Positions 2,970 through 32,741 of a stretch of DNA of 33,999 nt are shown in pieces. The stretch is from Anaerolineaceae bacterium. Its GTDB lineage: Bacteria > Chloroflexota > Anaerolineae > Aggregatilineales > Phototrophicaceae. Both the position numbers and the translations under genes were made by a program. Position 1 is the first letter of the stretch. Each line of letters begins with the position of its first letter. The notes beneath the pieces are model-generated. The model was not told the origin of the DNA, searched no databases, and worked only from the letters and a program-made list of their open reading frames with translations. The stretch lies in assembly GCA_007693385.1 (NCBI GenBank), contig REDR01000026.1, forward strand, positions 1-33,999. Direction: 5' to 3'.

Positions 2970-5900
2970 ATGATGAACCCAATCGCCATCACCGGTATCG
3001 CTTGCCTGTTTCCCGGCGCGGATGATCCCCGCGCTTTCTGGGAAGTGCTACGGCGCGGCGAGCGCACCACATCGGACGCCACAGCCGATCAACTGGGCGG
3101 CGACCCCGCCGCATTCCACGATCCGGCGCGGTTGCGTTCCGATACATCTTATTTTCTGCATGGCGGTTACATCGCCCGCGCCACGCTATCGCCGGAGGGG
3201 TACAGCCTGCCCGCGTCCACCGTCGCCGATATGGGGATGGCCTTCCGCATGGCGCTACACACCGCCCGCGCCGCGCTGACCGACGGGCGCTATCTGGACG
3301 ATGACGGCGGCCTGATGGCACGTTATCGCGCCCGTAGCGGCGTTATCATGGGCAATCTCGCCATGCCGACGCCGCATTCCAACCGGCTATTCACACCGGT
3401 CTATCAAGCGCTGTTCCGCAAAGCGCTAGCCGACGCGCTCGACCAGCCCGCGCCGCCACGCCACGATGCGCCAGACTCCGACACCGCGACCCTGCACGGC
3501 CTATCGCCCGGCTATCCGGCGGCGGTGGTGGCGTCCGCTTTCGGGCTGGGGCTGGGCGGCTTCGCGCTGGATGCCGCCTGCGGCTCGTCGCTGTATGCGG
3601 TCGGGCTGGCGGCGGATTACCTCAATAGCCACCGCGCCGACCTGATGCTGGCCGGTGCGGTCAGTTCCGCCGACCCGCTTTTGATGAATCTCGGCTTCGC
3701 CCATCTCGGCGGCTTCCCCGCATCCGGCGGCGATAGCGCCCCGCTCGATCAGCGCTCCGGCGGCTTGATCGCGGGGGAAGGCGCGGGTCTAGTGGTACTC
3801 AAGCGCTACGCCGATGCGGTGCGCGACGGCGATCATATTTACGGGCTGGTGCGCGGCGTCGGCCTATCCAACGATGGCGCGGGCAAACACATCCTGACGC
3901 CCAACAGCAAAGGGCAGATCACCGCGTTTCGCCGCGCCTACGACGACGCGCAGATTGACCCGTGCGATGTGGGCTACGTGGAATGTCACGCTAGCGGCAC
4001 GACAGTCGGTGATCGCACCGAGCTAGCGTCAATGGCTGGCTTTTTCAGCGATCCGCCGCGCATCGGCAGTGTCAAGAGCAATGTCGGCCACCTGATGACG
4101 GCGGCGGGCATGGCGAGCATCATCAAGCTGATTTTAGCGATGGCGCATGACGAAATCCCGCCCACGATCCGCGTCGAGCAACCGTTAACATCGCCCGATG
4201 GCCTATTCGATGGCGGGCGGATCGTGACGCGGGCGCAACATTGGCCGCCGGATAGCGCCGCGCCGCGCATCGTCGCCGCGAATGCTTTCGGCTTCGGCGG
4301 CGTCAGCGCCCATCTAATTTTGAGTGATAGCGTAGTAACACGCGATGAGAGAGAGACCGTGAGCAACCAACCGCAACACACACAACCCGCACGTATGGCG
4401 ATCACCGGCATGGGGGCGCACTTCGGCGACTTCGACACGCTAGATAGCTTCGCCCGCGCCCTGTTCGATGGGCGCACCGCCTTCCGTGATTTACCGGCCA
4501 ATCGCTGGAAGGGGCTGGAACAGCACCCCGACATCCTGCGCCAGTTCGGGCTGGATACCGGCAGAACACGCGGCGCGTATATCGAATCGTTCGATCTCGA
4601 CTTCATGGCGATGCGCATTCCGCCCACGCCCGCCGACGAGCCAATCCCGCAACAGTTGATCTTGCTCAAAGCCGCCGACGCCGCCATCCGCGACGCCGGA
4701 CTGAACGCGGGGGCGAATGTCGCCGTCATCGTGGCGCTGGGCACGGAGTTAGCGCTCCATCAGTACCGCGCCCGCGCTGATCTCAATTGGCAGTTGCGCG
4801 ACCTGCTGAACGCCAACGCCGGATTATTGCCCGCCGAGCAAGAAGAAGAATTGCGCCGCCTGCTCAAAGATAGCCTGCTGACCCCGGCGCAGGTCAACCA
4901 TTACACCAGCTACATCGGCAACATCGCCGCCAGCCGCGTCGCGTCGCTGTGGGATTTCAGCGGCCCGGCCTATACCGTCGCCGCCGAGGAGAACAGCGTA
5001 TTTAAGGCGCTGGAAATCGCGCAGATGATGTTCGAGAAGCGGCAGGTTGACGCGGTAGTGATCGGCGCGGTTGATCTGGCCGGCAGTCTGGAGAATGTCC
5101 TGCTCCGCAACCGTCGCGCCCCACTCAGCACCGGTGATCCGGTCGCCGGATGCGACGCTGAGAGCGACGGCTGGCTGATCGGTGAGGGCGCGGGCGCTGT
5201 CGTGCTGACCCGCGCTGATGCGGCGGGCGAGAACGCCTACGCGGTGATTGACGCGCTGGCCTTCGCCGGTGGTGGTGGGGTCGCGCCGGACGCCTTGCCC
5301 GCCACGCCGGACGCCGCCGCCGTGCAAAGCGCCGCCCGCGCCGCGCTAGCGCAGGCCGGAATCACGGCGGGCGATGTCGGCTATCTGGAACTACACGCGA
5401 GCGGCATCAGCGCGGAGGACACAGCGGAGATCGACGGCATCACCGCCGCCTATCGCATCGCCCGCGCTGGCGACCAGCCGCAGACCGCCATCGGCGCGGT
5501 CAAGGCCAACATCGGCCACACCTACATCGCTAGCGGCATGGCGGCGCTGATTAAGACCGCGCTCAGCGTCGGGCATCGCTTCATCCCCGCCATCCCCAAT
5601 TGGCGCGGGCCGAAGAAGCCGGAATCGTGGGCGGATACCGCGTTCTGGGCGGCCACGCAGTCGCGCACATGGTTTGATGAACGCCGTGTCGCCGCCATCA
5701 GCAGTCTGAGCGCGGACGGCACCGCCGCCCATCTGGTACTATCCGGCGTCGCCGAAACACGCCGTCAGCCGGATTATCTGCGCGGCGGCTTACCGGCGCT
5801 TGTGCTCATCGGCGGCGATTCGCTCGACGCGCTGACCGCGCAACTCAGCGCGTTGAAAGCGAGAATCAGCACCGACGCCGACCTGCCCGCGCTGGCTGAC

Positions 5901-8636
5901 GCCGTATTTGCCGAATATTCGGCGGCGTCGCGCTATGCGGTGGCGCTGATCGCCAAAAACGCCGACGCGCTCCGCGCCGAGATCGACCACGCGCTGAACG
6001 GCGTGCCGTCCGCGCTGGCGGCGGGCGAAGACTGGACGACCCCCGCCGGTAGCGCCTTCGCCGCGCATCCGGTAGGCGCTGGCGGGAAGGTCGCGTTCGT
6101 GTATCCGGGCGCGTTCAACAGCTACCCGAAGATGGGCTATGAACTGTTCCATCTGTTCCCGCACACGCTGGAAAGCCTGCGCGAGATTAAATCCGATCTC
6201 GGCGAAGCCGTCGCCGAGCGCTACCTGTACCCGCGCAGTCTGACACGCCCCGACGCCCGCCTGACGCGCACCATGAAGAACGCCTTCGCCGGTGATGCGG
6301 TCGCCACCATCGAGAGCGGCCTCAGCTTCGCGCTGGCCTATACGCGGGCACTGCGCGACGTGTTCGACATCCAGCCGTCCGCCGCTTTCGGCTACAGTCT
6401 GGGTGAAGGTAGCATGATGTGGGGCATGGGTGCGTGGCGCGATGGTGACGCCGGTAGCGCCACCTTCCACGACTCGCGCCTGTTCACAGACCGCCTCGTG
6501 CCGCCGATGCACGCCATCCGCGAAGCGTGGGGCATCCCCGCCGATGCGCCCGTCGAGTCCTTCTGGGCGGCGCATTTCGTGGCCGCGCCCGCATCCCGCG
6601 TTAAGGCGCTGGTCGAGCGCGAGAGCAAAGTGTATCTGACGCACATCAACACGCCGCAGGAAGTGATGATCGCCGGTGATCCGGCCGCGTGTGAGCGCGT
6701 GCTGGCTGAACTGGACGCCGACAGCATGAAAGCGCCTTTCAGCGTGGTGATCCATGCCGATGTGATGATGAGCGAATACCGCGAGTTCTACCGCCTGCAC
6801 GATCTGCCGGTCACGCCGGTGGATGGCGTCGATTTCTACAGCGCGGCGGACTATGCGCCGGTCAAGCTGGAGCGCGGCGTCGTGGCCGCCAGTCTGGGGC
6901 GCATGGCGTGCAAGCCGGTTGATTTCGCCAAGTTGATCGGGCGCGTATACGACGACGGTGCGAGGGTGTTCCTTGAGCTAGGACCGCGTAGCACCTGCGC
7001 CCGTTGGGTGAACGAGACGCTGGCCGGTTATCCGCATGTGGCGGCCAGCATCGACAACCTCAGCGCGGACTCGCGCACGTCGCTCGTGCGCCTGCTGGCG
7101 GCGCTGGTCGCCCATCGCGTCCCGTTGAATCTCGCGCCGTTGTACCATGCGCCCGCGCCGGTCAACGGGCGCTCATTAGTGCGACCGGTGACGCTCGGCG
7201 GTGCGGATGTGTACGCCGCTATCGTGGGGAACGCGCCCGCCATCATCGAAGGCCGCGCTTCCAGCGTGCCACAGGCGACGCCTGTCGCCGCTTCATCGTT
7301 GCCGATGCCGGAGGCGGTGCATAGCGTACACGGTGATTTCTTGCGTGCCCGCGCCGAAGGTCTGCAAGGTCTGGCGGAGCTAATCCGTCAGCAGATGGCG
7401 ACGCCCGCCGCGCATCAACCGGCAACCGTATCACCCGCGCAACCACAAACGCCGCAACTACCGCCGACGCCCGCGCCGAATCCGACGCCCGCGCCGTCAG
7501 TGGTCGCCGGTCATCAACCGCTTTACACGTATGAGCAAATCGAGACGTTCGCGCTCCGGCGCATCGCCGATACATTCGGCGAGCGCTACGCGATTTACGA
7601 CGGCAGACGCGCCCCGCGCATCCCCAACGGCGACCTGTTGCTGATCTCGCGGGTGGTCAGCATCGAAGGCGAGCGCTATAAATCCGGCGCGGGAACCAGC
7701 GTGCTGACTGAATACGATGTGCCGGTGGATGCGTGGTACTATCAGGATTCGCCGTACCCGACCATGCCGTACAGCGTGCTGATGGAAATCGCCCTGCAAC
7801 CGTGCGGCATCCTATCCGCCTATCACGGGCCGACGTTCGTCTATCCCGACGCCGACCTGTACTTCCGCAATCTGGACGGCGACGGCACGCTGATTAAAGA
7901 CCGCGACATGCGCGGACGGACGATCACCAATCGCGTCGCCATGCTCAGCCATGCCGCCATCGGTGGCTCTATCCTGCAAAAATACAGCTTCGAGCTATAC
8001 GACGGCGACGAACTATTCTACAAAGGCACGGCGGTTTTCGGCTACTTCACGCAGGAATCGCTAGCCAGCCGCGCCGGACTGGACGCCGGTACATCGCGTG
8101 ATCGCTGGATCGACACCGAGCAACCGGCCAACGTCATCAGCTTGCGCCCGCAAGAAATCGGCGACGGCTATCTGCGGCTGGGTGACGGCCATCTCGATCT
8201 GGTGCATGAGATTCGCGTCGTGCCGGATGGCGGCCACTACGGGCGCGGTTATGCCGCCGCCCGCACCGACATTGACGCCGGTATGTGGTTCTTCAAGAAT
8301 CACTTCCACGAAGACCCGGTGATGCCCGGCAGTATCGGCGTGGAGACCATGGTCGAAGCGCTACAGGGCTTCGCCATTCAGACCGGCCTCACGGCGGAGA
8401 TGCCCGACGGACACTTCGGCCACACCGACTCACGGGTGACGGACGGCGGGCATAAGGTCGCATGGCGCTATCGCGGGCAGGTTCTCGGCACGTTCCGCGC
8501 CACGCACGTTGAGGTCAACATCAAGGACATCCGGCGGAGCGCCGACGAGATCGCCATCATCGCGGATGGCAGTCTGTGGCGCGAGAATCTGCGAATCTAC
8601 GAAGTGAACGATCTGTCCTTAGTGATCCGGCGGTGA
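2970..8636 (+). CDS. Giant PUFA-synthase-like protein KS-CLF-AT-DH-DH (PfaB/PfaC-like fusion)
   Basis: This 1888-residue protein starts at a tandem ATGATG with a weak purine stretch upstream. Domains in order: an active ketosynthase (about 1-450) with Cys204 in DAACGSSLYAV, His340 in ECHASGT and His374 in NVGHLMTAAG; a second KS-like domain (about 470-935) where the Cys position reads Glu673 (VAAEENSVF), the hallmark of a chain-length factor; an acyltransferase (about 1040-1420) with Ser1143 in GYSLGEGS; a Pro/Ala linker (about 1480-1520); then two FabA-like hotdog regions. The first has PTMPYSVLMEIALQPCG but Gln where the FabA His would be; the second has NHFHEDPVMPGSIGVE with His1778. The order resembles myxobacterial Pfa3 without the C-terminal acyltransferase. 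It should extend and dehydrate chains with the two preceding proteins. The exact product (PUFA, glycolipid or other lipid) cannot be read from sequence. Confidence 0.9.
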   Translation: MMNPIAITGIACLFPGADDPRAFWEVLRRGERTTSDATADQLGGDPAAFHDPARLRSDTSYFLHGGYIARATLSPEGYSLPASTVADMGMAFRMALHTARAALTDGRYLDDDGGLMARYRARSGVIMGNLAMPTPHSNRLFTPVYQALFRKALADALDQPAPPRHDAPDSDTATLHGLSPGYPAAVVASAFGLGLGGFALDAACGSSLYAVGLAADYLNSHRADLMLAGAVSSADPLLMNLGFAHLGGFPASGGDSAPLDQRSGGLIAGEGAGLVVLKRYADAVRDGDHIYGLVRGVGLSNDGAGKHILTPNSKGQITAFRRAYDDAQIDPCDVGYVECHASGTTVGDRTELASMAGFFSDPPRIGSVKSNVGHLMTAAGMASIIKLILAMAHDEIPPTIRVEQPLTSPDGLFDGGRIVTRAQHWPPDSAAPRIVAANAFGFGGVSAHLILSDSVVTRDERETVSNQPQHTQPARMAITGMGAHFGDFDTLDSFARALFDGRTAFRDLPANRWKGLEQHPDILRQFGLDTGRTRGAYIESFDLDFMAMRIPPTPADEPIPQQLILLKAADAAIRDAGLNAGANVAVIVALGTELALHQYRARADLNWQLRDLLNANAGLLPAEQEEELRRLLKDSLLTPAQVNHYTSYIGNIAASRVASLWDFSGPAYTVAAEENSVFKALEIAQMMFEKRQVDAVVIGAVDLAGSLENVLLRNRRAPLSTGDPVAGCDAESDGWLIGEGAGAVVLTRADAAGENAYAVIDALAFAGGGGVAPDALPATPDAAAVQSAARAALAQAGITAGDVGYLELHASGISAEDTAEIDGITAAYRIARAGDQPQTAIGAVKANIGHTYIASGMAALIKTALSVGHRFIPAIPNWRGPKKPESWADTAFWAATQSRTWFDERRVAAISSLSADGTAAHLVLSGVAETRRQPDYLRGGLPALVLIGGDSLDALTAQLSALKARISTDADLPALADAVFAEYSAASRYAVALIAKNADALRAEIDHALNGVPSALAAGEDWTTPAGSAFAAHPVGAGGKVAFVYPGAFNSYPKMGYELFHLFPHTLESLREIKSDLGEAVAERYLYPRSLTRPDARLTRTMKNAFAGDAVATIESGLSFALAYTRALRDVFDIQPSAAFGYSLGEGSMMWGMGAWRDGDAGSATFHDSRLFTDRLVPPMHAIREAWGIPADAPVESFWAAHFVAAPASRVKALVERESKVYLTHINTPQEVMIAGDPAACERVLAELDADSMKAPFSVVIHADVMMSEYREFYRLHDLPVTPVDGVDFYSAADYAPVKLERGVVAASLGRMACKPVDFAKLIGRVYDDGARVFLELGPRSTCARWVNETLAGYPHVAASIDNLSADSRTSLVRLLAALVAHRVPLNLAPLYHAPAPVNGRSLVRPVTLGGADVYAAIVGNAPAIIEGRASSVPQATPVAASSLPMPEAVHSVHGDFLRARAEGLQGLAELIRQQMATPAAHQPATVSPAQPQTPQLPPTPAPNPTPAPSVVAGHQPLYTYEQIETFALRRIADTFGERYAIYDGRRAPRIPNGDLLLISRVVSIEGERYKSGAGTSVLTEYDVPVDAWYYQDSPYPTMPYSVLMEIALQPCGILSAYHGPTFVYPDADLYFRNLDGDGTLIKDRDMRGRTITNRVAMLSHAAIGGSILQKYSFELYDGDELFYKGTAVFGYFTQESLASRAGLDAGTSRDRWIDTEQPANVISLRPQEIGDGYLRLGDGHLDLVHEIRVVPDGGHYGRGYAAARTDIDAGMWFFKNHFHEDPVMPGSIGVETMVEALQGFAIQTGLTAEMPDGHFGHTDSRVTDGGHKVAWRYRGQVLGTFRATHVEVNIKDIRRSADEIAIIADGSLWRENLRIYEVNDLSLVIRR

Positions 8637-8643
8637 ATGTGAT

Positions 8644-9963
8644 ATGGCGGAACTGGTAAACGATGATCGCTCCCCGCGTGCGATCCGCTTAGGGCGCATC
8701 GCCGCGCTTTTGCGAGTAGCGGCGGGCGTGCTGGGCTGGCTGGCCGTTTTTCTGGCGCTGGCTGGCCTGCTGGGGGGCATCACCGGCGGCGACCTGTTCG
8801 ATCTGCTATCCCGCCTGATCGCAGGGTATGACGGCGCGGCGGATACCGCCTTGCTGGTCATGATCCTGCTGATTTTAGCCAACCTCAGCGCGTTTCTGGT
8901 GTTGATGATCGGCGTCGGGGCGGGCGAGTTCTGGTCGCCGCCGGTGCTGGCCGGATTGCTGGCTGTTAATGTCGCGCTGGTGCTGTGGCTGGGGTTCATC
9001 CCCGCGTTGATCCCGATTGGCTTCGCCGCTTACGCGCTGGCGTTGATGGCGGGCGACATCGGCGCGTTTCGCGTCAATCCGTTGATGCTCAAAGAAGTGC
9101 GCGAACGGATGCGCGGGGCGCGGTCTTTCGTGGTGATGACCGTCTATCTCGGCCTGATGAGCGCCTTCGCGGTCATCATCTACTTGATCGAAACACAAAG
9201 CGGGTCGGCTGTCGGCACGTCCGTCACCGGCGAGCTAGGGCGCAATCTGTTTCGCGGCGTGGTCGGCCTGCAATTGTTCTTGATCGTGTTCATCGCGCCA
9301 GCATTCACGGCGGGCGCGGTCAGTAGCGAGCGCGAACGCAAGACATACGACCTGCTACAGATCACATTGCTTCCGCATCAGTCCTTCATCATCGGCAAGC
9401 TAGAGTCGGCGCTGGCGTATATCTTGCTCCTGTTGTTGGCCGCCGTGCCGCTACAGAGCATCGCGTTTCTATTCGGCGGCGTCACCGAGCTAGAATTGCT
9501 CACCGCGCTAGCGGTGCTGGCGGTGACTGCGATCACGTTCGGCACCATCGGCCTGTACTTCTCCACCACGCTAGACCGCACGCTGACGGCCAGCACCCGC
9601 GCCTACATCGCTATCTTCATGCTGACTATCGCCGTGCCAATGGTCATCATCGTAGTGACCAGCGTATTCCGGCAATTTTTCGTGACGGCGGTAGGGTCAT
9701 CCGCCGTGTTGCAGGCCGGTATCATCTATCTACGCGGCTTCGCGGAGAGCTTAAATCCGGCGATTGTCTTGTTACAAACACAGGACTTGCTGATTAGCAA
9801 TCGCGGCAGTATGGGCTTCTATACCGAGCCGATCTTCGATGGCGTTCTATTGACCGGCGTGCCTCTGCCGTCGCCGTGGCTGGCGCTGACGATCACCTAT
9901 CTCTTGATCTCTGCCGTGATGATCGTGTTATCGGTGCGGGGCTTACGTGACCGCGATGCCTGA
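8644..9963 (+). CDS. ABC-2 type transporter permease
   Basis: This 439-residue, very hydrophobic protein starts 7 bases after the synthase stop, so it is probably co-transcribed. An N-terminal pair of membrane segments (about residues 20-45 and 62-85) and a further hydrophobic region (about 95-140) precede the conserved NPLMLKEVRERMRGARSF segment. A second core follows with FTAGAVSSERERKTYDLL, typical of ABC-2 permeases (GldF/NosY-like), then several more TM helices up to the C-terminus. No ATP-binding subunit lies nearby, so it must pair with a protein encoded elsewhere or upstream of the window. Export of the synthase product is possible from position alone but has no direct support. The 3' end overlaps the next gene by 8 bases. 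Confidence 0.8.
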   Translation: MAELVNDDRSPRAIRLGRIAALLRVAAGVLGWLAVFLALAGLLGGITGGDLFDLLSRLIAGYDGAADTALLVMILLILANLSAFLVLMIGVGAGEFWSPPVLAGLLAVNVALVLWLGFIPALIPIGFAAYALALMAGDIGAFRVNPLMLKEVRERMRGARSFVVMTVYLGLMSAFAVIIYLIETQSGSAVGTSVTGELGRNLFRGVVGLQLFLIVFIAPAFTAGAVSSERERKTYDLLQITLLPHQSFIIGKLESALAYILLLLLAAVPLQSIAFLFGGVTELELLTALAVLAVTAITFGTIGLYFSTTLDRTLTASTRAYIAIFMLTIAVPMVIIVVTSVFRQFFVTAVGSSAVLQAGIIYLRGFAESLNPAIVLLQTQDLLISNRGSMGFYTEPIFDGVLLTGVPLPSPWLALTITYLLISAVMIVLSVRGLRDRDA

Positions 9964-24867: not shown

Positions 24868-25773
24868 TTATGACGCGCCCGCGCTCTCGTCGGCGTCCGT
24901 CGCGTTGATCTCGATTCCGGCGTGTTGCGCCAGATCATCCAGCGACATCTGCGCCGCGCTCTCATCGCGGGAGGTCGCGCCACACACCAGACAACCCGGA
25001 TCACGCTGAACATCCACCCACACCGCGCCATAGGGCGGCGTCTGCGTGCCCTCGATGATCTCCAGCGCGGTATTGGCGAGTATCACCGTGTTGCCCGGCA
25101 GATCGCCGTCCGTGCCCAGCAGATAGCGCAGGGCGATGTCGGCCTGTGCCGACGCCACGCGCACCACATGAAGCCACAGCCCCGGCTCGGCCTCTAGCGT
25201 GCCCTCCGCGCCGATCATGCCGTAGTCCAACGCGCCGCCGTCGTCCTGCCCGATGGCCTGCAATCCTTCGCGCAGTTCCGCCGCCCAGCACGCATAGCAC
25301 GGCCCATCATACGGACGGATCAGCACCGCGTCGCCGCCCTCGCCGCGCTCATACACGCCCGCGTAGACGGCGGGCAGATGCCGCGCCAGACACGACTCAT
25401 TCAAGATGTACTTGACCTGCTCGCCATCCACGCCGACGATCAGCAAATCCAGCCCGTTGAGCGCGTCCATGTGCGCCTCAATGCGCCCGCGATGCGTTTC
25501 GATGCGGGCGTCCGGGTTGCGCTGGCGGATTAACTCCGCCACCACATCGACCTTCGGCTGGCCGACGGCGCGATGGTCGGCCACATGGCGCACCACGTTA
25601 TGCGCCTCTAGCGTGTCGTCGTCTACCAGCACGAAGCCGCCCACGCCACTCATCGCCAGACTTTGCGCCACGAAGCCGCCGCCGGAGCCGACGCCGACCA
25701 CGCCTACCGTCTTTCGCGCCAGCTTCTCTAAGTTGCTGTCGCCGATCAAACGCGCTACACGATCCCACATCAT
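24868..25773 (-). CDS. ThiF/HesA-family E1-like adenylating enzyme
   Basis: The ATG at 25773 overlaps the stop of the upstream JAB gene (ATGA), and GGAGG lies 10 bases before it. The 301-residue protein has the Rossmann nucleotide-binding loop GVVGVGSGGG (about residues 24-33), the ATP-binding LVDDDTLEAHNVVRH, and AVGQPKVD. Four cysteines in two CxxC pairs (C159/C162 in CYAC and C261/C264 in CLVC) form the usual zinc site. Cys128 lies in NESCLARHLPAVYAG, near where some E1s carry a thioester cysteine, but its role is unproven. Such enzymes adenylate the C-terminal glycine of ubiquitin-like proteins. Third gene of an E2-JAB-E1 operon, which points to protein-conjugation chemistry rather than thiamine or molybdopterin synthesis. 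Confidence 0.88.
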   Translation of the reverse strand: MMWDRVARLIGDSNLEKLARKTVGVVGVGSGGGFVAQSLAMSGVGGFVLVDDDTLEAHNVVRHVADHRAVGQPKVDVVAELIRQRNPDARIETHRGRIEAHMDALNGLDLLIVGVDGEQVKYILNESCLARHLPAVYAGVYERGEGGDAVLIRPYDGPCYACWAAELREGLQAIGQDDGGALDYGMIGAEGTLEAEPGLWLHVVRVASAQADIALRYLLGTDGDLPGNTVILANTALEIIEGTQTPPYGAVWVDVQRDPGCLVCGATSRDESAAQMSLDDLAQHAGIEINATDADESAGAS

Positions 25774-26885
25774 GATGATTCGTCCTCCGTCGGGATGGAT
25801 TGCTGTCCGGTTTCTGCTGTTGATTCGGTGTCGTTTGTTGATTCTCCTGCTTGCGGCGCGGGGCGGATGCCGTGATGGGTTTCCACCGCTTGAATATAAT
25901 CGACCAACTTCTTATCCGTCGTCCACACGAAATCGGGCGCGGGTGCGGCGGGAGTCGCGGTCTGCCACCATGCGGGGAATACATCGGCGATAGCCTGCCC
26001 CGCGCCCAGATTGACGAATGGCGCGAGTCGCATCTGTGGCGGCGCGTGCGGGTAATTGTACGGCGTGGCGACCAGATAAATCTGCTCCGCACCGTTCAAC
26101 CGCGCCGCGCTGACGCACACTTCTAGCGGCGGCTCGGCGTCGATGTCGGCGAGCAGTACCGTGATGGCGAAGTCACCGGCTTCCAGCGCTTCCCATTCGT
26201 CGGCGGAGCGGTCTTGATCGTTCAGATGCCACGCCACCGGCGCCAGTTCTGGCAAGTCCGCGTTCTCGACAACAATCGGCGTTATCGGCTGGAAAACGCC
26301 CCAATCGCGGTGAACATACCACCAATCGACGCGCAACGCGCTCCCGTCGCCCTGATCGACCAGCACATAATTGACATCGGCGGGCGCGGGGTCAATGGTG
26401 GCCGGATGCTCCAGCGTGACGATGGGCACCAGCAAGAAGGGCGCATCGTCCGGCGCTTCGTCCAGCCATTCCAGCGCGGTCTGCAAGTCGCCGCCACTCG
26501 GCGCGATCATGTGGCCGGGTTGCTTGTGCCAGTCGCCCAGATAGCGCAACGGCACATCCCATTCGCGCCGCTTGCCGAACCAGCCGCGCCCTGATTTGCG
26601 GCGCTCCATCTCCCAATTTTCGCGCCACCACCACATGATTTCATCCTGTAGTTCGTCGCCCTGCTGGAAGGTGTGCAATTGCCGCACCGCGCTAGCATCC
26701 GGCGAGATGGTATCCAGCACACACAGCGCGGCCTGCTCGCGCCCGCCGATCATCAGCCCGACCATCGCCTCGCCGGTTTCATCCTCCACGAATGTATTGG
26801 CGGCGATCTGCATTTTGTCGATCACCCGTTGCGCGATGTGCAGACGGGGCACCGGCGGACTCTTGCGTAAAAGTCTGTTCAGCAT
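25770..26885 (-). CDS. JAB/MPN-domain protein with altered metal site and UBC-like C-terminal region
   Basis: This 371-residue protein starts 8 bases after the E2 stop. Residues about 15-205 fit a JAB/MPN isopeptidase fold: Glu36 in DETGEAMVG and GDWHKQPGHMIAPSGGD, where the canonical HxHP-x5-PSxxD would sit. The second metal-binding His is Gln122 (CAA codon), while His120, Ser130 and Asp133 remain and His125 is nearby. Residues about 235-340 contain YLVATPYNYPHAPPQMRL, a pattern like the strand-loop-PP segment of ubiquitin-conjugating (UBC/RWD) folds, without an obvious catalytic Cys. The tail (about 342-371) is acidic and disordered. The role would be to trim the modifier or deconjugate it, unless the Gln disables the metal site. 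The JAB call is good; the UBC-like extension is tentative. Confidence 0.68.
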   Translation of the reverse strand: MLNRLLRKSPPVPRLHIAQRVIDKMQIAANTFVEDETGEAMVGLMIGGREQAALCVLDTISPDASAVRQLHTFQQGDELQDEIMWWWRENWEMERRKSGRGWFGKRREWDVPLRYLGDWHKQPGHMIAPSGGDLQTALEWLDEAPDDAPFLLVPIVTLEHPATIDPAPADVNYVLVDQGDGSALRVDWWYVHRDWGVFQPITPIVVENADLPELAPVAWHLNDQDRSADEWEALEAGDFAITVLLADIDAEPPLEVCVSAARLNGAEQIYLVATPYNYPHAPPQMRLAPFVNLGAGQAIADVFPAWWQTATPAAPAPDFVWTTDKKLVDYIQAVETHHGIRPAPQAGESTNDTESTAETGQQSIPTEDESS

Positions 26886-26893
26886 GATAAAAC

Positions 26894-27355
26894 CTACCTT
26901 CGCTCCGGCGGGTTACTGGCCGACTCTTCGATTCCCGGCCATTCGTTCGTCACGCGCCACGTATAATACGCATAAACCCACTGCACCGCCCACGCGGTCA
27001 CCGTGACCGCCGTCGAGCGTGATGGATTCCAGCCGTAATTTTCGCCGTCTTTGGGGTTGAACAGGCACAATTGCCCGTCCTCATATTGATGTTTTTCGCT
27101 GTAGATCGGCGGCGATAACACGTAGGCTTCCGCCGGACGGCTGGGGTAATCACGCGGGTATAGAATCTTGAGCGTGTGTTTCGGCTGACGCAAACGCGCC
27201 AGATTGATGTCCACCACGCCGCGCCAGTACAGCAGTTCATCATCTTCGGGGACGATCAAGCGGAATGTATCCTTGAAAACCGCCCGCATCGCTTCGACTT
27301 CCAGCCGTAGACGGGCAGAGACTCGCCTGCGTGTCCCCCACCAATTTTCACTCAT
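26894..27355 (-). CDS. Bacterial E2-like (UBC-fold) conjugating protein
   Basis: This 153-residue protein matches the bacterial E2 pattern: an N-terminal helix, strands around LYWRGVVDINL and HTLKILYPRDYPSRPAEAYVLSP (the YPxxPP-type element), then YEDGQLCLFNP with Cys97 as candidate catalytic cysteine, GWNPSRSTAVT and a C-terminal helix (VQWVYAYYTWR). Stand-alone prokaryotic E2s of this type occur with E1 and JAB genes. GAGAAG is about 5 bases before the ATG. First gene of the E2-JAB-E1 operon, with a possible promoter in the 88-base gap upstream. It would carry the activated modifier as a thioester and pass it to a target. Confidence 0.8.
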   Translation of the reverse strand: MSENWWGTRRRVSARLRLEVEAMRAVFKDTFRLIVPEDDELLYWRGVVDINLARLRQPKHTLKILYPRDYPSRPAEAYVLSPPIYSEKHQYEDGQLCLFNPKDGENYGWNPSRSTAVTVTAWAVQWVYAYYTWRVTNEWPGIEESASNPPERR

Positions 27356-28159: not shown

Positions 28160-29824
28160 TCAAACGCGCTTTTTGTCACCGCCGCCCAGCGAACGCCGCG
28201 CCGCGCCACCGTCGCGGATGGTCTGCACCGCCTGATAGAACGTCTCGTCATAGGCGCGTGTCTTGAGGACAACCGGCATCGGCACGGCATGTCCCATGAT
28301 GATCGCCTGCTGTTTGGTATCCAGCCGCGCCAGCACTTCGCGCAATCCGCCCGCGCCACTGACGCCATTCAGCACCGCGCTGATGTCGCGCTCGTTGTCT
28401 AGCAAGGCCGTCACCCGCGTGCCGATCTGACTCATCACTTCTTCGTCGATCTGGCTGGGGCGCTGGTCAACCACCAGTAACGTCACCTTGTATTTACGCA
28501 TCTCCCGCGCAATCACGCCGAAGATCGTCTGTGAGGCCACCTGCGGATCAAGGAATTTGTGCGCCTCCTCGATGACGATGAGCAACTGCGGCGGCTCCAA
28601 ACTCGGATCGCCCAGCGCTCGCTCGATCTTCTCCACGTATTGCTGATGGACGCGCCGCGTGATGTAATTGGCGACCAGCATATAAGCATCCAGCGAATTA
28701 CCGTACCGCCCGAATTCCAGAACGACGGTGCGCTCTTTCTGCACCAGCAGATCAAGGATGCTGGTGATCGTGTCCTCAACCGGCTCTTTGCTGAGGAAGT
28801 CCCAGCGCTCGAAGCGCTCCAGACGGCGTTGCAACGCGGCCAACGTGCTGGTCGTCAGCTTGGTATTCTCTTCTATTTCCAGCGCGTCATCGGGATCGCC
28901 AGCCAGCAACCGCACGATCCAGTCCCGCCCCCATAGCTTGCTCAGCGTGTAGGCGGCGTCGATCATCGCGTCGGATAAGTTCATCGTACCGGCCAACCCC
29001 TCAAGGTCACGCGGCTCGATTTCGCTATACGGCAGGCGCACCTCAAAATCATAGCGGGCTTTGCGCCGCCGTGAGCTTTCCGGGTCCAGCGTGATGATCG
29101 TCACGCGATCACCGAACAATTGCGCCAACCCTTTGACGTGATGGCCGTTCTCGCTGGTCACCTGCCAGCCGTAATCGTTGTGCATGTCGAAGATCAGATT
29201 CACGCCGATATTGCGGCTGATGATGCCCGATAGCAGGACGCGGGTTAAGAAGCTCTTGCCGGTGCCGCTTTTGCCGAATACGCCGACGGAGCGCTCCGCC
29301 AGTCGCCGCAGGTCGAGATTGACCTGTGTCGTCTCTAGCTCTAGCGGCGCACCGATGTTGAAATGCGTCGCGTCCTCCTCCCCGAACACGTTATTCACGT
29401 CGTCCTCGCTGGCGTTGTATGCCCGCGAGAAGTGGCCGGGAATGGTCTTGACCGGTAGCGGCTTGTCGTCCTCAATGGACAGCATCGGCGCGGCGTGGAT
29501 GGTGCCATAAGCCACCGTGCCGCTATAGACCGCGTGCAGGTACGGGTCGCTCATGTCTGGCGGGCTGTTCTGGATGGCCGGATGCGTGGTGTTCAATTCG
29601 ATGTCGGTCACCATGCAGAAGAAGCGCTTATGCTGGCCGCGCACCACCACATAACGCCCCACCGCCAGCGCCTCGACGCTTTGCGCCGCTTCCAGCCGGA
29701 TGACCAGCCCGCGCCCCAGCGATCCGCCGACGACCACGCCCAGATAATCCGATGTATCGACGTGGAAGGCGGCCTCGCCGCCACGCGGGAAATATTCTTC
29801 AAGTGATGCCGGTTGATCGCTCAT
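28160..29824 (-). CDS. HerA-like ATPase (DUF87/VirB4-FtsK superfamily)
   Basis: This 554-residue protein has an N-terminal beta-barrel-like region (HAS-barrel type, about 20-120), then a P-loop ATPase. Walker A is GKSGTGKS (residues 184-191). Walker B is LLIVIEEAHKF (about 414-424), followed by VVDQRPSQIDEEVMSQIGTR with the sensor Gln. HerA proteins form hexameric DNA-translocating rings and act with the nuclease NurA in end resection, or in defence with other effectors. No nurA lies in the window. A purine-rich GAGGGG is upstream of the ATG. It lies 48 bases after the rlmB stop. Function beyond the ATPase class is not determinable. Confidence 0.86.
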   Translation of the reverse strand: MSDQPASLEEYFPRGGEAAFHVDTSDYLGVVVGGSLGRGLVIRLEAAQSVEALAVGRYVVVRGQHKRFFCMVTDIELNTTHPAIQNSPPDMSDPYLHAVYSGTVAYGTIHAAPMLSIEDDKPLPVKTIPGHFSRAYNASEDDVNNVFGEEDATHFNIGAPLELETTQVNLDLRRLAERSVGVFGKSGTGKSFLTRVLLSGIISRNIGVNLIFDMHNDYGWQVTSENGHHVKGLAQLFGDRVTIITLDPESSRRRKARYDFEVRLPYSEIEPRDLEGLAGTMNLSDAMIDAAYTLSKLWGRDWIVRLLAGDPDDALEIEENTKLTTSTLAALQRRLERFERWDFLSKEPVEDTITSILDLLVQKERTVVLEFGRYGNSLDAYMLVANYITRRVHQQYVEKIERALGDPSLEPPQLLIVIEEAHKFLDPQVASQTIFGVIAREMRKYKVTLLVVDQRPSQIDEEVMSQIGTRVTALLDNERDISAVLNGVSGAGGLREVLARLDTKQQAIIMGHAVPMPVVLKTRAYDETFYQAVQTIRDGGAARRSLGGGDKKRV

Positions 29825-32222: not shown

Positions 32223-32741
32223 ATGGCGACAGACCCCATCATACCGCGCAAATGGAAACTATCGGCGCACGGAGCGCAAAACGTATTCGTCTGGGGCGAG
32301 CGCGAGCGTAGCGTGCATACGCTGATGAAAGCGTTCATCTGGGCGCTTTACCTGCCACACTACGCCGAACTCACCGTCGAAGTCCGCATCGACGACCCGC
32401 GCTATAAGCCGGATGTCGTCGCCATCCCGCCGCCGCCGTCCATCTACAGCGCCCAGACCGCGCCGCTTTTCTGGGGAGAGGCCGGCATGGTCGGCAAGCA
32501 GAAGATCGAAACGCTGGTGCGCCGTTACCCCGAAACGCATTTCGCCATCGCTAAATGGGCGACCAACCTGCGCCCGCACGCCGCCATCATCGAGACAGCG
32601 CTGGAAGATGTCCCGCGTTCAGCCCCGTTCGACCTCATCGCCATCCCGCACGACAGCAAAGAGCGCTTCATATCGCCGCGTGGCGAGATCAACGTCAGCC
32701 TTGATGATCTGGACGTGGTGCGCTTCGCGCCGGATAACTAG
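32223..32741 (+). CDS. Unrecognised protein, possibly YaeQ-like / PD-(D/E)XK fold
   Basis: This 172-residue protein has a helical N-terminal part (ERSVHTLMKAFIWALYLPHY), then YKPDVVAIPPP and LFWGEAGMVGKQKIETLVRRYPETHFAIAKW. The order helix, Asp-containing strand, Glu-containing strand, Lys-rich helix resembles YaeQ and other PD-(D/E)XK nuclease-fold proteins, where Asp and Glu bind metal. The canonical ExK is not present; the Lys residues come later (GKQK). The similarity is by eye only, and a non-enzymatic role is possible. No strong ribosome-binding site is seen at the ATG. It is divergent from cysS and ends 3 bases from the convergent trpS stop. Confidence 0.6.
   Translation: MATDPIIPRKWKLSAHGAQNVFVWGERERSVHTLMKAFIWALYLPHYAELTVEVRIDDPRYKPDVVAIPPPPSIYSAQTAPLFWGEAGMVGKQKIETLVRRYPETHFAIAKWATNLRPHAAIIETALEDVPRSAPFDLIAIPHDSKERFISPRGEINVSLDDLDVVRFAPDN

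Follow-up and report, generated by a model that had tools for sequence, protein, structure and literature searches.

What does a bacterial ubiquitin-type enzyme set act upon when no ubiquitin-like gene lies beside it? The question is raised by three genes of an Anaerolineaceae bacterium (Chloroflexota, Aggregatilineales, Phototrophicaceae; assembly GCA_007693385.1, contig REDR01000026.1), of which we analysed a stretch of 33,999 nucleotides, referred to here as the window. The E2-JAB-E1 trio that a first-pass annotation had proposed on the minus strand was found as open reading frames at 27355-26894, 26885-25770 and 25773-24868.

26894..27355, minus strand: E2, a UBC-fold ubiquitin-conjugating-enzyme protein of 153 amino acids (PADLOC E2, 1e-16)
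25770..26885, minus strand: JAB protein of 371 amino acids with an MPN domain and a predicted UBC/RWD-like domain (PADLOC JAB, 3e-7)
24868..25773, minus strand: E1, a ThiF/MoeB-type adenylating enzyme of 301 amino acids (Pfam ThiF, 1e-34)

The spacing is as had been described, with 8 bases between the E2 and JAB genes and a 4-base overlap, ATGA, between the JAB and E1 genes. The profile matches of all three enzymes lie far beyond chance level, and the three genes are linked in all of the relatives' loci which have room for them. No beta-grasp gene was found next to the trio in the window, in agreement with the claim that an adjacent ubiquitin-like gene is lacking; the neighbours there are housekeeping genes. 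We also note a gene for a HerA-like (DUF87) ATPase close to the trio (28160-29824), for which no conserved link was seen among the relatives.

The E2 assignment was confirmed by HMM profiles, which matched both the PADLOC E2 model and UBE2L3-type chains. A profile built from 45 E2 relatives (A4) matches UBE2L3 (UbcH7) structures at about 1e-5, the best chain being L3A2-1 (2e-6). The cysteine proposed for the active site, Cys97, aligns with the catalytic cysteine of UBE2L3 and is invariant in 84 of 84 relatives.

27065..27067, minus strand: candidate catalytic cysteine of E2, Cys97, aligned to the catalytic cysteine of UBE2L3

A search for E2 relatives on plasmids found none. Elsewhere in the phylum, distant E2 relatives lie near JAB-like and membrane genes in two loci of family f73 (L190 and L191) and next to a gene with a nucleotidyltransferase-like motif in two loci of family f32 (L192 and L193).

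The JAB protein gave no match when compared with Pfam. Its proposed JAB/MPN domain is supported by the PADLOC JAB match and by the AlphaFold2 model (pLDDT 87, pTM 0.83), which has the MPN fold in structure comparison; the VIA-align Z scores of this domain are 14.9 for BRCC36, 14.5 for an archaeal Rpn11 homologue and 13.0 for Cap3.

26298..26852, minus strand: MPN/JAB domain, residues about 12-196, from the VIA-align structure comparison
26487..26528, minus strand: JAMM motif H120-K-Q122-P-x6-S130-x2-D133, with glutamine in place of the second zinc-ligand histidine
25860..26294, minus strand: predicted C-terminal UBC/RWD-like domain, residues about 198-342, without a cysteine at the E2 position

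Where the catalytic JAMM (MPN+) signature is E ... H-x-H-P-x6-S-x2-D, the window reads H-K-Q-P. Glutamine occupies the second zinc-ligand position in 18 of the 20 proteins of the homology-search set and in 98 of 109 distinct sequences of the tree set, and HxH is found only in family f5 and in genome G178. The frequency of glutamine among the relatives from a scan of GTDB contigs is biased because the search pattern, GDWHKQP, itself contains the residue; the homology-search set and loci found later serve as the check. In the JAB gene tree the histidine and glutamine states require at least two changes, which could have run in either direction. The near invariance of Glu39, His120, Ser130 and Asp133 argues for a JAMM site that has been retained in altered form.

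The remainder of the JAB protein is assigned, from sequence and modelling, as a UBC/RWD-like domain lacking the E2 cysteine. Since the VIA-align comparison spanned residues 8-211 only, this assignment rests on the profile-profile comparison with the E2 family (P=7e-5, probability 62%; negative controls 0.13 and 0.62) and on the order of secondary-structure elements predicted in the AlphaFold2 model (a helix, four strands and two helices). In some lineages (L029-L033) the JAB tail carries a hydrophobic patch with an acidic flank (e.g. SIPVLIEEDD), which resembles a SUMO-interacting motif.

The E1 belongs to the ThiF family as claimed and matches Escherichia coli MoeB at 1e-15 (hhalign). It has a ThiF/MoeB-type adenylation domain, with conserved nucleotide-site residues (Asp51, Asn59, Arg62, Lys74 and Asp116), and the two CxxC pairs remarked upon earlier are invariant in every alignment row with letters at those positions.

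25288..25299, minus strand: first CxxC pair of E1, Cys159/Cys162, invariant in all 87 rows with letters
24982..24993, minus strand: second CxxC pair of E1, Cys261/Cys264, invariant in all 86 rows with letters
24931..24945, minus strand: C-terminal motif SLDDL of E1, Ser277-Leu281, also present in the membrane partners M1/M2 described below

The conserved catalytic cysteine of a canonical thioester-forming E1 was not found: no column between the CxxC pairs exceeds 20% cysteine in the alignment. The four cysteines of the pairs are the only invariant ones, Cys128 being common but not invariant. By its sequence, E. coli MoeB does have a cysteine between the pairs. The lack of such a residue in the trio's E1, like the H-K-Q-P form of the JAMM motif and the second domain of the JAB protein, had gone unmentioned in the first-pass annotation.

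With glutamine in the JAMM motif and no catalytic cysteine in the E1, some components of the machinery could be non-catalytic. Taken further, a pseudo-JAMM and a cysteine-less E1 might serve mainly as a scaffold, regulating E2 or the partner protein X introduced below without any conjugation. Glutamine at the zinc-ligand position in most lineages is consistent with this, as are the lack of a conserved catalytic cysteine in the E1 and of a cysteine in the UBC/RWD-like domain, and the QSQ mutant of BRCC36 (HSH to QSQ) is a solved structure. We nevertheless regard a mainly non-catalytic role as unlikely: Cys97 of E2, the E1 nucleotide site and Glu39, His120, Ser130 and Asp133 of the JAMM site are nearly invariant, unlike the residues of decaying sites, and family f5 retains HxH.

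Possible partners of the trio were sought by clustering the neighbouring genes of 111 distinct loci. The most frequent neighbour, a small protein which we call X, is encoded on the same strand directly downstream of E1, within 1 kb, in 63 of these loci. It is followed in frequency by a PCMT-type methyltransferase (50 loci) and by a membrane-protein family, M (c7), which lies upstream of the trio in 20 loci, with another c7-like upstream gene in three more. Every other neighbour family occurs in at most six of the 111 loci. The full order M1-M2-E2-JAB-E1-X is kept in families f2-f5, with one to three M genes, and the linkage of the genes holds in five families of the order.

In the genome from which the window derives, the locus is split. 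X is encoded on the minus strand of contig C4 (G000:C4:5113-5385), followed by the methyltransferase gene and then a NUDIX gene, and M1-M2 are found on contig C109. Contig C4 ends, and the window's own contig (C9) begins, within an acyl-carrier repeat of a polyketide/fatty-acid-synthase gene; an identical repeat of 284 bases is present in positions 1-1104 of the window and in positions 5676-9422 of the locus on C4 (L156). These 284 identical bases in the same synthase repeat make it very probable that the two contigs adjoin, in which case X lies on the same strand as E1 and at least about 29 kb downstream of it. The window's genome would then have the ancestral gene order with an insertion between E1 and X, and a comparable separation, of about 12 kb, is seen in genomes of genus g7. 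The suggestion that a modifier is encoded elsewhere survives in part: a candidate partner does lie on the neighbouring contig, but its role as modifier is, in our estimate, doubtful.

The N-terminus of X is variable, acidic and proline-rich. The conserved core ends in GVSLRKRRAWY, of which SLRKRRAWY is near-invariant and is followed by a short tail, usually of 0-6 residues (76 distinct ends). In 52 of 71 tails the first residue after RAWY is glycine, alanine or valine; a C-terminal glycine is not conserved. Such a pattern resembles that of a processed modifier precursor, although GC-rich codons and common descent could produce it too. Profile searches gave no convincing family match for X. The protein is predicted to be mostly disordered, and its structure model, of low confidence at pLDDT 66, contains helices and a single hairpin. 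On the basis of this model we rejected X as a beta-grasp ubiquitin-like protein. X-like C-terminal modules were also noted within larger proteins in three genomes of the order (L164, 3937-5073; L165, 7116-7577; L163, about 5207-5308); one host protein is RHS-like and another resembles GIY-YIG by eye, with further sequence following the module.

A different role for X would be that of a precursor in a RiPP-like peptide maturation pathway, with E1, E2 and JAB acting on its C-terminus and the PCMT-type enzyme methylating it. X is linked to the trio, it has the variable N-terminus and conserved C-terminus that this reading would favour, and known RiPP pathways include E1 enzymes that lack a catalytic cysteine and have peptides as their substrates (MccB). 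The methyltransferase, of about 400 residues, follows X in many loci (e.g. L156, 3927-5165; L026, 6239-7438; L028, 7108-8403), and the NCBIfam model that it matches best is TIGR04364, the FxLD family associated with RiPPs. The score, however, falls below the curated cut-off, and in the loci checked in families f4 and f5 and in genome G178 it is a NUDIX gene that directly follows X. Furthermore, X is single-copy and conserved across the order, unlike most RiPPs, and RiPP pathways do not usually include an E2. Peptide maturation therefore appears to us an unlikely function, on a par with the scaffold role considered above.

The M proteins are tied to the trio by a further feature. Of 2055 proteins from the order's loci, 65 contain the pattern [ILMV]SL[DE][DE]L, 64 of them within the last 45 residues, and all but one of these C-terminal occurrences are in E1 or M1/M2, two E1 proteins of additional loci being counted here with the E1 set. 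The shared tail connects the M proteins with E1 even where their genes lie far apart. The lone exception is an unrelated protein of 172 amino acids encoded in the window (32223-32741), which has VSLDDL near its C-terminus, probably by chance.

The distribution of the trio was surveyed in two sets of genomes and in GTDB contigs. In the set of 298 genomes from the class, 14 of 14 in the same family and 20 of 21 in the same order carry JAB, with one weak match elsewhere. Within the order it is present in 135 of 151 genomes; those without it make up families f6, f60 and f61, together with a few others, most of them incomplete. In the GTDB contig scan a single-protein query found no relative and an alignment query found 132, of which the 80 retained are nearly all labelled Chloroflexota, some of them 'Aggregatilineales'. 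Two records labelled Pleurocapsa minor and Bacteroidetes (L115 and L065) carry a Chloroflexota locus and are probably mis-binned or mislabelled contigs. A trio that is near-universal in one order and almost absent from the rest of the class is inherited core equipment, passed on vertically, and not a sporadic cassette. X was found in 132 of the 151 genomes of the order: 130 have both X and JAB, five have JAB without a found X, two have X only (these genomes being 74-80% complete) and 14 have neither. M genes are present in 47 of 61 genomes of the order and, like JAB, are missing from f6, f60 and f61. The co-inheritance of the trio, X and M amounts to roughly one gain, in the ancestor of families f1-f5, and not to many independent events; the conserved linkage across families is for this reason the stronger argument.

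The same survey bears on the kinship to Bil and Bub anti-phage operons that the first-pass annotation had put forward, according to which the trio would be a Bil-, Bub- or CBASS-like conjugation system whose ubiquitin-like modifier is encoded elsewhere. It is true that the best HMM matches are to the PADLOC E1-E2, E2 and JAB defence models, and that distant E2 relatives are scattered sporadically through the phylum, in two cases next to a nucleotidyltransferase-like gene. Against this, the trio is near-universal and vertically inherited in a single order and is surrounded in the window by housekeeping genes; it has no linked ubiquitin-like gene, its E1 lacks the catalytic cysteine and in most members the second zinc-ligand histidine of the JAMM site is glutamine. 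The genome-wide check for beta-grasp proteins that had been recommended did return candidates, but only of the ThiS/MoaD type, one of which has its own E1, and YukD was not found. The proposed kinship is not borne out by these data, and we consider a defence function improbable.

A role as a sulfur-carrier activation operon for thiamine or molybdopterin, already disfavoured, is very improbable despite the similarity of the E1 to MoeB and ThiF. The E1 falls far short of the ThiF/MoeB equivalog cut-offs, a separate ThiF-family gene with a full-strength match adjoins a ThiS-like gene on contig C21, and the trio lay within no such operon in any locus inspected.

In our view, and with about an even chance of being correct, these three enzymes form the core of a ubiquitin-type modification pathway that is inherited, specific to the order and linked to the membrane, and whose ancestral locus was M1-M2-E2-JAB-E1-X. 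The basis is what can be read from the sequences, namely the protein families, their linkage and co-inheritance, the shared tail motif and the residue patterns, and from these we infer a mechanism. The zinc-bound, MoeB-like E1 would adenylate a protein C-terminus, and the acyl group might then pass from the adenylate directly to Cys97 of E2, with no E1 thioester in between. From E2 it would go to a membrane-proximal target, and docking of M1/M2 and E1 through their SLDDL tails may place the complex there. The JAB/RWD protein would trim, reverse or gate the reaction, in most lineages with a metal site changed to HxQ. For the partner that is activated or modified, X is the leading candidate. Cap2 offers a precedent for such a partner, since it conjugates cGAS, a protein without a beta-grasp fold, via the cGAS C-terminus (PMC10097602). 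The most specific form of the proposal, a housekeeping, membrane-tethered conjugation confined to one order in which a non-beta-grasp, partly disordered X is the modifier and passes directly to E2 from an E1 that has no catalytic cysteine, is put forward as a less likely, tentative possibility.

Most of what is known of ubiquitin-like enzyme sets in bacteria concerns defence cassettes of sporadic occurrence, whereas the set described here is fixed and inherited across an order, with partners (X and M1/M2) previously unlinked to such enzymes. If active, it would represent an everyday bacterial role for E1-E2 chemistry and possibly a new type of modifier. The natural variants, with an HxQ JAMM motif and a cysteine-less E1, are useful for dissecting the evolution of the cascade.

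Comparison with known systems places the trio close to several of them and within none. It shares with E. coli MoeB and ThiF the adenylation fold and paired CxxC zinc motif of the E1, but differs in having no conserved cysteine between the pairs and in having E2 and JAB as gene partners. Like Cap2 (E1-E2) and Cap3 (JAB) of Type II CBASS, it brings together the chemistries of E1, E2 and JAB with no separate ubiquitin. Its E1 and E2 are, however, distinct proteins, a conserved catalytic cysteine is missing from the E1, and the trio is part of the core inheritance of one order, with X and membrane partners; no CD-NTase lies alongside, and no nucleotidyltransferase was found among the frequent neighbours in the 111 loci.

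The Bil and Bub operons, as described (PMC11354881 and PMC12687455), come complete with a ubiquitin-like protein. The trio resembles BilABCD (ISG15-like) in its separate E1, E2 and JAB genes but is vertically inherited, not sporadic, and has no BilA: no linked gene with tandem ubiquitin-like domains was found in the window or among the frequent neighbours. Its E1, at 301 amino acids, is too short for the pseudodimer and cysteine domain of BilD as outlined in that source (PMC11354881), and its distribution argues against Bil-type anti-phage activity. The likeness to Bub operons, compared by description only, lies in the bacterial cassette of E1, E2 and protease; Bub carries a ubiquitin-like gene (PMC12687455), and none was found linked to the trio among the neighbours in the 111 loci.

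Parallels in gene content are also offered by the JAB/E1/E2 operon types 6a-6e of Iyer et al. (2006), described as sporadic and in some cases without a ubiquitin-like gene (PMC1779556). As listed there, JAB, E1 and E2 are neighbours as in the trio, types 6a-6c include no ubiquitin-like gene and inactive E2/RWD-like domains occur in type 6e. What distinguishes the trio from every type from 6a to 6e, as far as these are described (PMC1779556), is the combination of a fused JAB-RWD protein, X, and membrane proteins with SLDDL tails.
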